Of a DNA stretch of 64,000 nt, positions 27,617 to 35,796 are shown piece by piece (within the stretch, counting starts at the first letter, position 1; each line of letters opens with the position of its first letter). This stretch comes from Aurelia coerulea (lineage: Eukaryota > Cnidaria > Scyphozoa > Semaeostomeae > Ulmaridae): the NCBI GenBank assembly GCA_039566865.1, contig CM076954.1, positions 7,014,001 through 7,078,000 on the forward strand, in the 5' to 3' direction. The translations under genes and the position numbers were made by a program. The notes under the pieces were generated by a model that worked only from the letters and a program-made list of their open reading frames with translations, made no database searches and was not told the DNA's origin.

Positions 27617-30190
27617 AGTTATTATTATTATTATCATTTTATTTAAAGTTGGCAACTTACATAGCTAAATATAAAAAGAAATGCTAATTCAAGCCAACAA
27701 ATTAATTACAATGATACCAGTAAATACAATGATACAAAATATATACAAGTAAATAGTCAATAAAATTACAAAATTCATAAAATCTATATATAAAATCTAC
27801 AAGCAAGATGTATGAAACTATAAAAAGCCGAGCCCTGGTATATATCGTTTGCAAAGTCTGCAGTCATAATCTACATTTTTCCAAAATTTTATTTTATTCT
27901 TGAATTGTTGCACAGAATTTGCATCTTTGATTTCCTGTGGAACGGACTGCCAAATACGCTGCCCTCTATATTGGACCGTTTCAGTACCATGATTAACAGT
28001 ATTTACCTTTGGAACCATGAATGTATTTATATTTCTCAAATTATAGGCAGAACTTCTTTGAAGAAAGATCTCATTCATAAATGGGGGGTTTAGATTATTT
28101 ATTGTTTTGAACATTTCAGTCATTAGCAACTGCATATTTTTCTCATGTACTGTTACAGATCTATCTTTTTCCAGCAAAGTTGCGAAACTAGAACTATAGT
28201 CTTTATATGCTATCCTCAGGGCTCTCTCGTGCAGCCTATTGATTTTGTTATTCATCTTTCTGCTATGAAACATCCAAACCAACGGACAGTATTGGAATTG
28301 GCTAGTCACAAATGCTCTCATTAAAAGTCTCAATTTATCAGTACCTAGATATGCCGACATCCGTGACAAAGCAAAGAGTTTGTTACCAGCCTTTTGACAA
28401 ATATTACTTATGTGCTTTTCAAAGCTAAGATTTGCGTCAATTAAAACTCCTAACAGCTTCTCCTCCTTTGAATTAGTAACGGCACAGCTGCCTATATTTA
28501 TGTTGACCTCTTGATGTGTTCTTTCACCAAATATCATAAAATGGCATTTGTCTTCGTTTAGCTTCATGTAATTGTTTCCAAACCACTCGATTATGATTTT
28601 GGAATCATTTTCTAGCCTAGAGATTACATTTTCGAGACGCATATCGCATGTATAGATGGTTGTATCATCCGCATAGTTACATATATCTGTTTCTTGTATC
28701 GATAACAGAAGATCATTGATATAGATATTGAAAAATAGAGGACCAAGGACGGATCCTTGAGGAACACCAAGCCTTAGATGCTTATAGGTGCTGAAAGATC
28801 CATTGATTTTTACTCGTTGTTGCCGATTTTCCAAATAGCTGTAAGCAAGCCATAAAGCTTCACGGCTAAAACCGTAGGCATGTAACTTAGCAATAAGTAA
28901 GTCATGTCGAATACAGTCAAAGGCCTTTGAAAGGTCCATAAAGATAGCTCCTATTTTTCCACCGTTGTCCAGGCACGTTTTCCATTTTTCAGTTGCCCGC
29001 ATCAATGCATGTTGGGCATTGTAGCCCTTGCGAAAACCACAAAGCAGCCATGATAAATACGGAGACATGTGTGCAAAAATCTGAGTAGCCATGAGCCTTT
29101 CAAACACCTTTGACACTGTCGGGAGAACACTAATAGGTCTGTAATTACCCTTGAAAGTTTTGACTTCTTTTTTAAAAAGAGAAGATACATCAGCTAACTT
29201 CAATTCATCGGGAAATGAAGATTGTTCTACTGAGTTATTAAATATGATTTGCAAAGGTGTAGAGACTAGATCGGACTCATTTTTCAACAGCTTTGGAGGG
29301 ATACTCTTGAAAGTGGTTGACTTCGAGGGGTTTAGCTCATCAATTTCGTTTTTCATATTGTCAACTGACACCTTTTTAAATGAGAAAGAACCAGTGTCCC
29401 CATTCAAGGAACGAATTTTTTGAATACTTGGGTGCCTTGAGAACCTAAATAATATTTGTTCGATAGGATCACTAATACCTTCAGGATCAAGAATAATATT
29501 TTCATTTTCGATGATTCCAAGAGATTCGGTGATTGTAACAAAAAAGTTATTAAAAGTCTCAGCTACTTCAGACTCGTTCGACACAATTTTCCCTTCTTCA
29601 ATCAATGTTATTCTTGATTTTGAAGAGCTTTTATCCGAAATAAAAGGTTTGACAGTCTTCCAAAATTTTTTGTTGTCTGTAATTTCTGAAATGTCAAGTT
29701 GATTATAGAAACATCTTTTTGCCTGACGGGATAATTTAACGCACAGATTACGCTGTCTACGGAAAGCATCCCAGTTATCAGCTGTTCTATTCTTATTATA
29801 TTTATTCTTTAGTCTTGTGCGTAGCATAAACGCCTTGTGAAGAGTTCGGTTCATAAAGGGACTGTCATTGGCACGAATGTACCTCTTTTTCATTGGTGCA
29901 TGTTTATCTAGAACACGTTGAAACGTATCCTGAAAGGATGTGTAGGTCAAATGTTGTACTTCAAGATCAGCGAGTTCAGTCTGAAGATCCTGTCGAAATA
30001 TATCTTCTCGAAAGTGTTTATAGTCTCTGTAATTTACAACGTTTGGTTTTTGCTTGTCAAAAGAAGCTTTCAAAACGGTAACAATCATTTTGTGAAAATC
30101 AGATAGCCCAGTTTCGATCGCCGTTGTGTGTTGAAAGTTCCTTCCTCTATTTGTCAATATCAAGTCAATACATCTAGGGTTACCGGACTT
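27617..30190 (-). CDS. Group-B non-LTR retrotransposon, almost intact reverse transcriptase
   Basis: A 781-codon open frame (30163 to 27818) with all RT blocks. It begins with the last part of the APE endonuclease: CFKSGNPRCIDLILTNRG just upstream, after a frameshift at about 30185, then GLSDFHKM. RT: NYRPISVLPTVSKVFERLM, LLCGFRKGYNAQHALM, IFMDLSKAFDCIRHDLLIAK, GVPQGSVLGPLFFNIYINDL, and the active site ICNYADDTTIY with both Asp present. Then MKLNEDKCHFMIFG, KLLGVLIDANLSFEKHI, a thumb, and the end YRGQRIWQSVPQEIKDANSV then DCRLCKRYIPGLGFL. The 3' side runs into an ATT/AAT tail at 27617-27640. Only the 5' half (ORF1, most of the nuclease) is missing, so it cannot move alone, but the RT frame is undamaged. 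Confidence 0.9.
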
Positions 30191-30915: not shown

Positions 30916-30923
30916 AAAGTAGT

Positions 30924-31254
30924 ATGGTGGCCCATCGTTGTCAAAACAATTCTGAGTTATATTTAATTTTTTTTCGCATTTAAATCACATTTACAATCAA
31001 AGTCAACTTGAAATGAAACCAAATTCAATTTGAAATTAAATTTTGTTTCGATCTGAACCTAAATCAATGCTAATAAAAACTTGATTTTACATTAAAGTTA
31101 ATTTTAGTTTCAATTTCATTTTTGTTTTAGTTTCAATTCTACTTTTAAAATATATTTGCCTAAAATTCAAATTGCCAAGTGGACCATCGCTATCATTATC
31201 ATTTTCAAATCGAGGCTGGTCTCGGAATCATGACCAGAAAGTTTTGGCGGGAAA
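30924..31254 (+). repeat. Left terminal inverted repeat (331 bp)
   Basis: Matches the complement of 35456-35786 over its whole length, including a run of eight T. Differences seen: two substitutions in the 'GATCTGAACCTAAATCAATG' segment. It ends at GTTTTGGCGGGAAA, about 100 bp before the preferred kinase start, so it should contain the kinase promoter. Confidence 0.97.
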
Positions 31255-31355
31255 ACATATGTCTCGTACCATATGCTCGTTTCGTACAGATCGTGAACTC
31301 TCAAAAAGCACGCAGCACGTGGTATTCGAATAGAGGGGAAAGGTGCGAAAAAATT

Positions 31356-32624
31356 ATGTCTGGGGCTGCTAGAAAGAGAACATGGGAAGATCTCAAAAGA
31401 GATGTCGCAAGCAAAAGAAGTGGCAAGGCTACAACAACATCAAAGAAGTCGATGCCTGCACCTGCTACCATAATGGTCCAAAGAATGAGTTCTGTACCTA
31501 ATAGATCTAAGAAATATGACCCATTGGACACTCGGGATTTTGTAGATTTTTCAGCCTATACTGAACTGTCACTTGAGAATATAAAAGATGCCTGTGAAGG
31601 GTATTATGAGATGCCACAAGGCTCATGTGATGTCCTTTTAAGTGACAGAGGCCCATCTTGTTTCCTCACAGAGCAAGTGGCTGGAAAGAAATTCTATTAT
31701 GTTAGATTTACAGATATCCTATGCCCAGCACCAGCAAAAGTAAGAAAAACTACGAAGATTGATGCAGACAGAGATGAAGTTAGAGTCCACTCTCAGGGCA
31801 TTGCACAGGAGATCAGTTCACTCCCCCCTGTTCCACCCACTGCTTTCCCCAAATCAGTATCTGTTGCAACACTACTTGAGGCAAGAAAACTCATCACACC
31901 ACCAGATGTCACAAGAACCAAGCTGAGGCTGGAGAGTTTTAATGTGGCTGAGAAAAAATGGGTAGAACTGCCTGTCTTCGAAGTTACCAAGGAAAACAAA
32001 CCATTTGCCGAAGGGGGCTTCAGAGAAGCGTTCTTGGCAACGGAAGTTCTTCCAAACAATAAATCTGGCAAGAAATGGGTTGTTAAGACATACAAGTCAG
32101 GTCAGATGGATAAAATTTTGACAACAATTGGCATGACTGCAGAGCAGCATACCAGAAAACAGGTTCAAATGCATTGTGTTGCCCACAACATAGCAGTGAG
32201 TATGTTAAGAAAGTGTCCTGTGGAGTTTGGAGAGTCATTCTCATATAACAAAGTGTATTTTTCCTCAATGGAAGGAGTACCTATCACATCAGAAGAATAT
32301 ATACCTGGTCGCTTTGTAAAGTATATCAACAATAATGGAAGAATTGCAAATGCTTCATCACTCCTTGGCAAAACCTTACTGCAGAAAGCAGAATGCTTTG
32401 CACATTTTTCTTACATTCACACACAGAGAAAAATGATGGTCTTGGACTTGCAGGGAGTTGACTACATGTTATGTGATCCTGAGATTTCAACTTCAACTCT
32501 AGTTGAAGATGGTGAGCTGAATTTTTGTTCAGGCAATCTGTCTACTGATGCTATGACAACATTTTTTGAAGAGCACAAATGCAATAGCTACTGTGAGCTA
32601 CTAAAGTTGGCTGCAGAGACATGA
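31356..32624 (+). CDS. Alpha-kinase (MHCK/EF2K family) encoded by a DNA transposon
   Basis: The open frame runs from 31179, but its first 25 codons lie in the terminal repeat. I prefer the Met at 31356 (MSGAARKRTWEDLKRDV), giving 422 residues. Numbered from 31179: residues 60-200 are a basic then mixed region I cannot assign; the alpha-kinase domain covers about 255-478. Motifs: FAEGGFREAF (276-285, phosphate loop), VVKTY with the ATP-binding Lys303, EEYIPGRFVKYINNNG (372-387), LDLQG (422-426) and LCDPEI (431-436) with the catalytic-site Asp residues, GNLS (452-455), and the zinc motif HKCNSYC (466-472). All hallmark residues are present, so the enzyme is probably active on Ser/Thr of an unknown substrate. 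No signal peptide or membrane segment is seen; probably cytoplasmic or nuclear. It has no introns, as expected for transposon cargo. Confidence 0.9.
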   Translation: MSGAARKRTWEDLKRDVASKRSGKATTTSKKSMPAPATIMVQRMSSVPNRSKKYDPLDTRDFVDFSAYTELSLENIKDACEGYYEMPQGSCDVLLSDRGPSCFLTEQVAGKKFYYVRFTDILCPAPAKVRKTTKIDADRDEVRVHSQGIAQEISSLPPVPPTAFPKSVSVATLLEARKLITPPDVTRTKLRLESFNVAEKKWVELPVFEVTKENKPFAEGGFREAFLATEVLPNNKSGKKWVVKTYKSGQMDKILTTIGMTAEQHTRKQVQMHCVAHNIAVSMLRKCPVEFGESFSYNKVYFSSMEGVPITSEEYIPGRFVKYINNNGRIANASSLLGKTLLQKAECFAHFSYIHTQRKMMVLDLQGVDYMLCDPEISTSTLVEDGELNFCSGNLSTDAMTTFFEEHKCNSYCELLKLAAET

Positions 32625-33457
32625 TAACATATGTATTTGCTTTATATAAGTTTAAGTTTTCGCGTGGCTTTTCATTTCGTTTCAAGGCATGGAATTAAAG
32701 CTTTTTAGCTGCAGTGAGAGAAACTTTTCAATTTATGATGTAACATTCAAGGGACTGGGTCATGTAACCATAAACAAACCTGTTATCTCTATAATCTATA
32801 TTTTTGCCCACATGTGTCCATTGTGCTCTGCACGAATTTTGGTGGATGGGGTGAATCCACAAGAAAGTACTTCTAAGAATCCACCAATATCTCTGCAATC
32901 GTACATCAAACGAGTGAATCATACAGCATAGAGTTCATCTTCAAAATGACACTTTCATTTTGAGAAAGATAGTGGAAAATCTCTGTGATCTGCAAAATCA
33001 TTGTTTGAAAAGAAGTTTGTTAGGTGACCCAGCCCATTTAATGTCAAAAACCTTCCAAAAACTATCTGTTTGATATTGCCCGTCTTACATCCATTTCAAC
33101 TTTAAATGTTGGAATTGAATTGGTAATAGTAAACAGTTTATGTTGGGCCATCAAATACTGTTTTTATTGGATTAATTAAATAAATCTTTGATAAAAAAAA
33201 CTTGGCAGGAATAAAGATTCCTTAAAATGTACCTTATAGTCAACAAGCAGTATTATGTCTTCCCTTGAGAAAAAGTTCAGCTTGCAACAAGCTTGACAGA
33301 AGCATGATTTTGGCTTGAAGGAGCTTGAATTGAGTATGTTGCCACAATTTTGGCTAGTTTGCATGTATCATTACAGCTTGATCAGGCCTAGCAATAATCA
33401 CATGCTAGAATTATTCTCAAACATACTACGATCAAGCTTGATAGAGTTTGCCTTCCA
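32625..33457. other. Transposon spacer between the convergent genes, first part
   Basis: AT-rich. An 80-codon frame at 32689-32931 (+) begins MELKLFSCSERNFSIYDVTF; it has Cys pairs (CPLC) but no family I know, and the opposite strand is open too, so I leave it uncalled. An ATTAAA near 32694 could serve as poly-A signal for the kinase. Confidence 0.5.
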
Positions 33458-33777
33458 CCCAGGGGGGGGGGTACTCTGCTACATTTAGGATATGGTGCTC
33501 AGGTTACTTCTTTGGGTCTAACATTTGGGCAAGGGTTATTATGTTTGAAGAATGATTTTTTTAATCAATGATTTGTACACTTTTTTGGGTTCCTGAAATT
33601 CTGTCTCACTTTTCTACTGATGTAAGATACTGACTTCATAACTTTGGGGTATGTAGGGTCAGGAAAATTATTTTTTTGGATGTATTTTCATGCTAAAAAT
33701 TATTTGTTGGGTTGATGCTTTGTACCCCAGCCTGAGCACCCTATCCTAAATATACCTGAGTAGCCCCCCCCCCTGGG
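33458..33777. mobile_element. 320-bp G-run foldback nested in the alpha-kinase transposon
   Basis: The ends are CCCAGGGGGGGGGG at the left and CCCCCCCCCCTGGG at the right, with mirrored 'TTTAGGATATGGTGCTCAGG' blocks inside. The flanks GCCTTCCA (33450-33457) and ACCTTCCA (33778-33785) form an 8-bp target duplication with one mismatch. Size, 8-bp duplication and CAGGG-like tip suggest a hAT-type non-autonomous element. It inserted after the host transposon gained its present spacer. Confidence 0.8.
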
Positions 33778-34198
33778 ACCTTCCATTCAGAAGATGCATG
33801 ATGCAAGGTAGCTCCAGCAGTGCAAAAATCTTACTTGGATCAAGCTCTCAAATCATACTCAAAACAAATAGCATATTAGGCTTGAAGCATGCAAGATACT
33901 CGATATTTTGCTAAGGGTTGTTGCTGTAAGTGAAAATGTTGTTTCTTACAAAAGATCAATGTATGCCTTTATATATGCCGTGTAATGATGGATATGGGAC
34001 AGCTCAAACACAATTTGTTATCACAACTGTTAAAACAAATAGTTTATTTTTTGACTTGTTTATGTTGATGTTAGTATTTTCCAGGACCACAGGGACACAG
34101 TTAGCATATGTACTCTATCGTGCTGTCAGTTAGTTCTGTTTGTTGAGACAAAATACAAAGAAACTACTAAAACTTTCATTTCTTGGATTTGCTTTTTC

Positions 34199-35401
34199 TC
34201 AAATTATTGTATCAAGTACATCGGATCGTACCATAAAATTGAAAGCTTCAACTATATCATTACAGGGCACCTTTTCTGGTTCCTTCAAAATGCTACTCAG
34301 TGCATGTCGATGCTCCTGACATATGTAGTCTAAAGTTTCCACATCTGCAAGATCATTAGCTTCATTCAAGGATTCTGCAGAGATTGCAAGCCCTTTTTCC
34401 TCTGCTTCATATTGGTTGGGAAATGCATACATGTGATTTGGAATTCCACAGGGCAATATAACTCCTTCTTGCTTTCTGATCCTATGGGAATTCCAAATCC
34501 TCACAAAAGTGTCACATTCCCTTTGCAAGATTGGAATTACCAAATAAGACAAGATAATACGGTGCCTTTGATTGTGTGGGTCATAAGAATGTGAAGACAA
34601 AAGATGCAAAAGATGAGCCTTTATGTCTTTCTCCATCCTATGGTGAAGATCCCTCCACCATCTCTCAATTTTGTTGGCTGTGGATGGTCCATAGATCACT
34701 GCATCAGTTTCTTCCTGAAAGGTGCCCAACTTTTGATGTAAATAACAGTGGATTGTAGCCATCAACCCTGTTTCGTTACCCCTGTCCAAACGAAGGTAAT
34801 GTGGCAGCACTCTGGATTCAGTAAGATATTGAAGAAAAAAATTTGCAACAAGTTTTGGGTCTGAGTTGCCATTCCAAACTCGGAGAAATACTATTTTCCG
34901 GGAAAAAGTATCTTGACATCCATAAATGGCAAGAGGAAACGTTGACTTCTGAAAACCCATCATTTTGTCGTGCCCATCTAGTGAAAATGTCCAGTTAGGG
35001 CCATCAGAAGAAAAGGGTCGCTTCGGGGTTTTCTTTTTCCTCTTCACACATCTGGATTCAACACCTTCTGGGTCTAATTCCCACATTGTATCGTAGACGA
35101 TCTTTCTCGGCACACAAATACCATACTCAGTTCGCAGTTTCTGGTTCATTGATCTGTAGCCAAGCAATTTCCCAGGCCCGTTCATTTCTTCTTCCAGTGC
35201 TTTCGTGACCACAGACAAGTCAGTGTCCCTCTCTATGTAGTGGATTCCAAAGAATCTGAGACGACGGTCAAGTGTGGCTAGGCTCCAACGGTATTGTGAA
35301 AAATCTCGACACATGAAATCAAGGATCTCTTTCCTTTTCAAATTTTGCTGTACATATATTTGAAGGCACTTTTTAAGATCATCATTTTCACTCCAGTTCA
35401 T
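34199..35401 (-). CDS. Integrase-like DDE transposase of the alpha-kinase transposon
   Basis: A 400-residue uninterrupted minus frame starting MNWSENDDLKKCLQ, 55 bp inside the right terminal repeat. Residues 5-60 look like a helix-turn-helix DNA-binding part (KRKEILDFMCRDFS...TLDRRLRFFGI). Residues 70-115 hold the GYRSMNQKLR / DPEGVESR signature preceding the catalytic core. The core (about 135-255) fits an rve/retroviral-integrase fold: Asp142 in SLDGHDKMMGF, a conserved YGCQDTFSRKIVFL strand, Asp206 in LRLDRGNETG, and Glu246 in TANKIERWWRDL, i.e. D-63-D-39-E. It should cut and join the ends at the 331-bp repeats. The match to the IS3/Ginger/IS3EU-like range is by motif; exact superfamily unknown. 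It points towards the kinase gene (convergent). Confidence 0.88.
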   Translation of the reverse strand: MNWSENDDLKKCLQIYVQQNLKRKEILDFMCRDFSQYRWSLATLDRRLRFFGIHYIERDTDLSVVTKALEEEMNGPGKLLGYRSMNQKLRTEYGICVPRKIVYDTMWELDPEGVESRCVKRKKKTPKRPFSSDGPNWTFSLDGHDKMMGFQKSTFPLAIYGCQDTFSRKIVFLRVWNGNSDPKLVANFFLQYLTESRVLPHYLRLDRGNETGLMATIHCYLHQKLGTFQEETDAVIYGPSTANKIERWWRDLHHRMEKDIKAHLLHLLSSHSYDPHNQRHRIILSYLVIPILQRECDTFVRIWNSHRIRKQEGVILPCGIPNHMYAFPNQYEAEEKGLAISAESLNEANDLADVETLDYICQEHRHALSSILKEPEKVPCNDIVEAFNFMVRSDVLDTII

Positions 35402-35455
35402 CTTTTGCTAAAACACGTGTACCTAAATAAAGTCTGTTTTACCATTTCCCTACCA

Positions 35456-35786
35456 TTTCCCGCCAAAACTTTCTGGTCATGATTCCGAGACCAGCCTCGA
35501 TTTGAAAATGATAATGATAGCGATGGTCCACTTGGCAATTTGAATTTTAGGCAAATATATTTTAAAAGTAGAATTGAAACTAAAACAAAAATGAAATTGA
35601 AACTAAAATTAACTTTAATGTAAAATCAAGTTTTTATTAGCATTGACTTAGGTTTAGATCGAAACAAAATTTAATTTCAAATTGAATTTGGTTTCATTTC
35701 AAGTTGACTTTGATTGTAAATGTGATTTAAATGCGAAAAAAAATTAAATATAACTCAGAATTGTTTTGACAACGATGGGCCACCAT
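35456..35786 (-). repeat. Right terminal inverted repeat (331 bp)
   Basis: Complement of 30924-31254. It lies immediately upstream of the transposase start on the minus strand, so the same repeat sequence that precedes the kinase also precedes the transposase. Confidence 0.97.
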
Positions 35787-35796
35787 AAAGTAGTAT

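Follow-up and report, generated by a model that had tools for sequence, protein, structure and literature searches.

Transposons of the IS3EU/GingerRoot superfamily are described as having TA..TA ends, usually a 6-bp target site duplication (TSD) and an IS3/integrase-like DDE transposase without HHCC, the first catalytic D of which lies 100-300 residues from the N-terminus (PMC10045372, in the part of that description available). In the rust fungi, TET+ IS3EU elements have termini of the form TAYGG..CCRTA, a 6-bp TSD and terminal inverted repeats (TIRs) of more than 30 bp, and the available part of the same 2025 report remarks in passing that the TET+ IS3EU of rust fungi and Tuber carry a transposase and an alpha-kinase in opposite orientation (PMC12730594). 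The kinase is mentioned there once, without alignment, selection analysis or function, while the TET/JBP genes of fungal transposons are proposed to aid escape from silencing (PMC12730594). Here we describe a transposon with this gene pair in the scyphozoan Aurelia coerulea, located in a 64,000-nucleotide stretch of contig CM076954.1 (positions 7,014,001 to 7,078,000; assembly GCA_039566865.1), hereafter the window. Taken as a whole, it is probable that this is an autonomous IS3EU/GingerRoot transposon with an old convergent gene pair, in which the kinase would serve as a helper of transposition.

The complete element occupies positions 30923-35787 of the window (4,865 bp) and is bounded by TIRs of 332 bp each, with two mismatches between the arms, and by the termini TATGGTGGCCC..GGGCCACCATA, i.e., TATGG..CCATA. 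Inside it, the alpha-kinase gene on the forward strand and the transposase gene on the reverse strand converge on a 1.6-kb spacer. The sequence AAGTAG is found on both sides as a 6-bp TSD. As the insertion sits in a local repeat, with 19 identical bases on both flanks, the length of the TSD is uncertain from the window alone and is settled by the other copies in the genome. A previous reading of the window made from its letters alone (the sequence-only reading) had correctly counted two differences between the TIRs, giving them a length of 331 bp, and had placed the limits of the element at 30924..35786, which is one base too far in at each end. Its 8-bp flanking sequence AAAGTAGT is the TSD AAGTAG preceded by the final A of the element and followed by its initial T, and all four of the other copies with a perfect TSD have one of 6 bp. 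An 8-bp TSD, and with it a hAT-type or other element making 8-bp duplications, is thus rejected on the five copies with a perfect TSD. The features of the element are as follows.

30917..30922 (no strand): TSD, left copy, AAGTAG (five of the six full-length copies each show a 6-bp TSD of their own)
30923..31254 (+): left TIR, 332 bp, starting TATGGTGGCCC
30927..30943 (+): terminal motif GTGGCCCATCGTTGTCA
31179..31195 (+): inner copy of the terminal motif, GTGGACCATCGCTATCA
31243..31254 (+): E2F-like TTTGGCGGGAAA on the inner margin of the left TIR, preceding the kinase gene (putative role)
31356..32624 (+): alpha-kinase gene, 422 aa, a single open frame (PF02816)
33458..33778 (no strand): nested hairpin in the spacer, resembling a miniature inverted-repeat transposable element (MITE), with CCTTCCA flanks at 33451 and 33779
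34199..35401 (-): DDE transposase gene, rva_4 integrase core, 400 aa (PF24764; D142, D206, E246)
35456..35787 (-): right TIR, 332 bp
35456..35467 (-): E2F-like TTTGGCGGGAAA on the inner margin of the right TIR, preceding the transposase gene (putative role)
35515..35531 (-): inner copy of the terminal motif
35767..35783 (-): terminal motif
35788..35793 (no strand): TSD, right copy, AAGTAG

A search with the TIR of the genome (G000, 574 Mb in 294 contigs) gave 16 matches, these being six pairs and four single ends. The six pairs delimit full-length copies of 4,841-4,878 bp, that of the window included, and all have the termini TATGG..CCATA. Perfect 6-bp TSDs flank five of the six (AAGTAG, GTCCTG, GACCTG, GATGTG, and GTTAAC), with none for copy L013, and there is no match between the 300-bp flanks of one copy and those of another. 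Between one and seven substitutions separate the five TSD-bearing copies, and 52-55 separate L013 from these five. Such near-identical copies, with their own TSDs and unlike flanks, indicate that the element moved recently and as a unit. The kinase is present in all six copies, so that TIRs, transposase and alpha-kinase have moved together, as the sequence-only reading had supposed. The kinase frame is open in five (the exception being L010) and that of the transposase also in five (shifted in L013), both being open in four. One TIR of copy L012 is 25 bp short, and the missing piece overlaps the inner motif. There are also four partial places, the first with an open kinase frame and a transposase with one stop, and the other three with a transposase only, a transposase piece and a kinase piece, respectively. 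Within this family a ratio of nonsynonymous to synonymous substitution rates (dN/dS) is powerless, as the genes of the copies differ from those of the window at 0 to 11 positions each.

The constraint on the kinase can be followed in related families. A transposase search of the genome gave at least 105 matches of 29-100% identity (104 of 506 candidates scored), and among these 12 loci from other families, 46-64% identical in the transposase, were inspected on the 3′ side. An opposite-strand kinase was identified at eight of the 12 (F5, F34, L035, F17, L043, L045, L048, and L049), and the pairing is therefore kept beyond the family of the window. Together with the copies described above, this contradicts the outcome that the sequence-only reading had named as fatal to its proposal, namely that the kinase would be missing from all other copies of these TIRs and this transposase. 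Complete open kinase frames are present in F5 and L043, and that of L049 is open as far as the stretch reaches; the kinase of L045 is cut by the end of its stretch, those of F34, L035, and L048 are broken and that of F17 has a stop just before HKCNVYC. Both TIRs were delimited for F5 (4,869 bp), F34 (4,414 bp, TSD CTGTAC) and F17 (5,100 bp), all of which start and finish with TATGGTGGCCCAT (TATGG at both ends), with no perfect TSD for F5 or F17. Left out of the 12 were L029 and L031 (64% transposase identity), which are free of a kinase within 1.5 kb on each side; L030, likewise kinase-free within that distance, had a kinase further out. At L044 (L044:1140-2960), a 607-aa open frame with a DDE_Tnp_1_7 domain, presumably of piggyBac type, lies downstream of a kinase-clade transposase at the place where a kinase would be expected.

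Between the window family and F5, the proportions of nonsynonymous (pN) and synonymous (pS) differences are 0.249 and 0.827 for the kinase over 412 codons and 0.236 and 0.830 for the transposase over 397 codons; for the remaining nine kinase pairs, pN is 0.30-0.48 and pS 0.74-0.83, the synonymous sites being saturated so that no exact ratio can be obtained. This pattern plainly indicates that purifying selection has acted on kinase and transposase to a similar extent, which argues against a passenger role for the kinase. Judged from these substitutions, the kinase is an old, selected partner of the transposase and not fresh cargo, and the option of captured cargo left by the sequence-only reading becomes unlikely. 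A recent capture of the kinase is rejected, given the pair kept in related families and the equal constraint.

The kinase matches PF02816 with 115.2 bits (Pfam, cut-off 21.3), and seven further transposon kinases or kinase pieces also exceed this cut-off. An in-frame ATG is also present upstream of its start, at 31230. Among solved structures, the protein is similar to TRPM7-type, MHCK-A and eEF2K chains with E-values of 2e-14 to 3e-13, which are alike for the three and so leave it with no clear closest relative. It possesses the motif FAEGGFREA together with K244, H350, D364 (LDLQG), D374 (DPEI), H407, C409, and C413, and the hallmark motifs named beforehand are all in place. We take these to include the ATP-binding lysine, the aspartate of LDLQG, the DP motif and the zinc-binding histidines and cysteines. 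The key residues align with chains 1ia9 and 3pdt, and those of catalysis and zinc binding are conserved. Pfam gives no match for the N-terminal 212 residues, and no other known domain was found in the protein, but part of this region is conserved between families. Invariant positions among five aligned kinases number 18 in the first 110 residues and 47 in the 211 of the kinase domain, the latter count being lowered by two sequences without their last residues (owing to a stop or the end of the stretch).

The transposase matches PF24764 (rva_4) with 75.7 bits (Pfam, cut-off 26) and, with D142, D206, and E246, is the integrase-like D-D-E protein that had been proposed. No HHCC was seen ahead of D142 when read by eye, and a match to HTH_21 was below cut-off; NCBIfam gave no match above cut-off and PHROGs a weak match to 'transposase' (E 0.016). 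In an alignment of eight transposases, with F17 represented by its first exon, the first D is present in all eight, the second D in seven and the catalytic E in all seven of those reaching that position. The sequence with an E in place of the second D is L033 (G000:C22:4024500-4031000), the frame of which is open despite this change; no kinase was found nearby. The F17 transposase (L039/L036, G000:C17:7747900-7755400) is in two pieces, covering residues 3-245 and 244-331 and lying approximately 240 bp apart, and the gap is probably an intron.

Both open reading frames (ORFs) of the element have a period-3 signal above that of all 200 shuffles, a signal not seen in the spacer, and 300 shuffles of the element gave no stop-free run longer than 169 codons, against the 422 and 400 aa of the two ORFs. 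Rfam gave no family at the gathering threshold and no tRNA was found. Viral contigs yielded no relatives when scanned with the two proteins, with one piece of each or with the terminal 21-mer, and a collection of genome contigs scanned with the two proteins yielded none either.

The terminal motif GTGGCCCATCGTTGTCA is repeated inside each TIR as GTGGACCATCGCTATCA. A pattern covering both, derived from these same sites, has four matches in the window, all of them TIR sites, and 100 dinucleotide shuffles give none. F5 and F17 also have an inner copy, 269-300 bp in from the element end, and none was found in F34 or F1, elements with delimited ends. Two transposase sites per end are thereby predicted. 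At the inner edges of the TIRs, TTTGGCGGGAAA resembles the E2F motif. An E2F-like core lies ahead of both genes in all four kinase families with delimited ends, with a chance per family of 0.06-0.2 in shuffles, and was sought only after being noticed in the window; it gives no more than a hint of S-phase expression. The nested MITE-like hairpin in the spacer, which the sequence-only reading did not list, has poly-G/C arms and was inserted before the burst of copies, since the alignment of the remaining five full-length copies runs through it. Directly to the left of the element there is a 781-aa open frame (27818-30163, reverse strand) which is reverse-transcriptase-like by eye.

Transposases at 29-35% identity are set apart from those described so far. 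In a tree of eight transposases, F1, F22, and L018b split from the other five with a bootstrap of 100, the other nodes being weak (37-73). No kinase was found on the 3′ side of six loci of this deeper clade, nor in 9.7 kb around L018b. At three of the six, a HECT ubiquitin ligase domain was identified instead (F1 36.7 bits, F22 31.0 bits, L051 36.2 bits; cut-off 23.9), that of L051 in a protein which also has a CUE domain. L053 had a HECT score of 20.4, below the cut-off, and in L050 and L052 none was seen. F1 is 8,909 bp long, with TACGGTGGCCCACAAG (TACGG) at both ends, a TSD of CTATGG and an opposite-strand exon with HECT. It is the only one for which both ends were delimited, and in F22 and L051 the HECT would also lie inside the element. 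The three HECT loci are listed below.

L040/L037/L041, G000:C1:40322400-40333500: IS3EU-like transposase with opposite-strand HECT, TIRs and TSD CTATGG
L038/L042, C22:8940200-8947600: IS3EU-like transposase with opposite-strand HECT
L051, C3:13401000-13404500: IS3EU-like transposase with opposite-strand HECT

A ligase in the same position in a related clade suggests that the job of the partner is the post-translational modification of a protein. The locus L018 also has a second, distant rva_4 transposase (L018:3729-4955, 29% identity), with a partial copy of the window element approximately 3 kb away, and a piece of a PIF1 helicase (L018:2058-3119).

With regard to classification, TATGG..CCATA ends are found in all six copies and in F5, F34, and F17, with TACGG in F1; 6-bp TSDs are found in five of the six full-length copies, in F34 and in F1; and the alpha-kinase lies opposite the transposase in the window family and in related families, as in the fungal elements. 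By these features, and not by a tree, the window element appears to match an autonomous member of IS3EU/GingerRoot.

For its mechanism, it is envisaged that in each TIR both the terminal motif and its inner repeat are bound by the DDE transposase, which would cut at the TA..TA ends and join these to a target staggered by 6 bp, as its DDE class implies. Each TIR may act as the promoter of the adjoining gene. The kinase made by the element, in what is a less certain step, may phosphorylate the transposase or a host protein in favor of transposition. The sequence-only reading had put forward the transposase, a host repair factor or the translation machinery as possible targets. To us, a host chromatin, repair or cell-cycle protein would be a more likely substrate than the transposase, because the related clade does without a kinase and has a ligase.

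A number of observations weigh against this account. The young copy L010, with its perfect TSD, has a stop at codon 212 of the kinase; as its transposase frame is intact, either the working kinase can be supplied from elsewhere or the stop is younger than the insertion. No kinase was found at four of the 12 related loci, namely L033 (a 6.5-kb stretch), L044, L046, and L047 (about 3 kb each), and L033 has the altered second catalytic residue. Among the 12, certain loci seem to be copies of a shared family (by near-equal search scores, L033 with L035 and F34 with L047), and the missing kinase may therefore be a loss at the level of the copy. The class rests on ends, TSD and domain, and the AlphaFold2 models of the two proteins, made without an alignment, are too poor to be of use (mean predicted local distance difference test, pLDDT, 40.2 and 33.3).

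Other explanations of the gene pair differ in how well they withstand these data. The kinase may serve the host or shield the element from silencing, with no direct role in cutting or joining, as has been proposed for fungal TET/JBP (PMC12730594, in the part available). The presence of another protein-modifying enzyme in the related clade is also in line with this, and we regard it as unlikely, if still deserving of attention. That the kinase phosphorylates the transposase itself, regulating its assembly or activity, is consistent with the conserved two-gene plan and the equal constraint on both genes; however, related-clade transposases in the same genome have no kinase at any locus examined, and we hold this version to be doubtful. 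It is rather improbable that a host kinase was captured once and rides along with no part in transposition. The four related loci without a kinase, the five of eight related-family kinases that are broken, cut or with a stop, and the stop in L010 could be read in this way, but kinase frames are open in families 62% identical, with saturated synonymous sites and a constraint equal to that of the transposase, pN far below pS being a partial refutation, and the same pair in the same orientation is mentioned for fungi (PMC12730594, available part). Finally, a single host kinase gene lying by chance amid unrelated repeats, or an assembly artefact, has next to no probability and is rejected, as there are six full-length kinase-bearing copies, five of them with different perfect TSDs.

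The preferred reading, of a transposon with a kinase as its helper, can be taken further. As a tentative proposal, which we would place somewhat short of an even chance, IS3EU-type elements may have a two-gene plan with an exchangeable second gene, convergent with the first and set between like ends, for a protein-modifying enzyme (alpha-kinase in one clade, HECT ligase in a related one) that licenses transposition via one class of host step, perhaps in cell cycle or repair; kinase expansions such as those of the rusts would then largely consist of transposon genes. The alpha-kinase family is reported to be highly expanded in the rusts and missing from the Microbotryomycetes (PMC4469406, in the part available), and rusts are where kinase-bearing IS3EU elements have been described (PMC12730594, likewise); the two may be linked. 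Counts of alpha-kinases in genomes may thus be counts of transposons. The remark made for fungi now has a testable system, with a transposon possessing a dedicated kinase, near-identical copies and HECT families for comparison in the same genome.

When compared with known systems, the transposon kinase shares its domain and catalytic residues with the TRPM7-type, MHCK-A and eEF2K kinases and differs in having its own conserved N-terminal region. With the Zymoseptoria element Styx it has an IS3EU-like transposase in common. The proposed ancestor of Styx has two proteins, and Styx itself four ORFs (transposase, GATA protein, CCHC protein and DUF3577) with no kinase among them (PMC10853768, in the part available). 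With IS3EU/GingerRoot as described, the window element shares the TA..TA ends, the 6-bp TSD, the HHCC-free DDE core and the position of the first D; the term 'kinase' is absent from the available part of that description (PMC10045372). The sequence-only reading knew of no superfamily with such a kinase, and this is superseded by the TET+ IS3EU of fungi, which carry the pair, so that the pairing is not unprecedented (PMC12730594, in the part available). These elements are fungal, with a TET/JBP gene between the two genes, and no such gene was recognized in the window element, which shares with those of the rusts and Tuber the opposite transposase and kinase, and with those of the rusts the TSD, the ends and the long TIRs (PMC12730594, same part). 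In the literature searched, with subscription papers largely outside it, there was no report of the pair outside fungi, of its joint mobility or of constraint on the kinase. These three may be new here, in a known superfamily and for a gene pair that is known but hardly studied.

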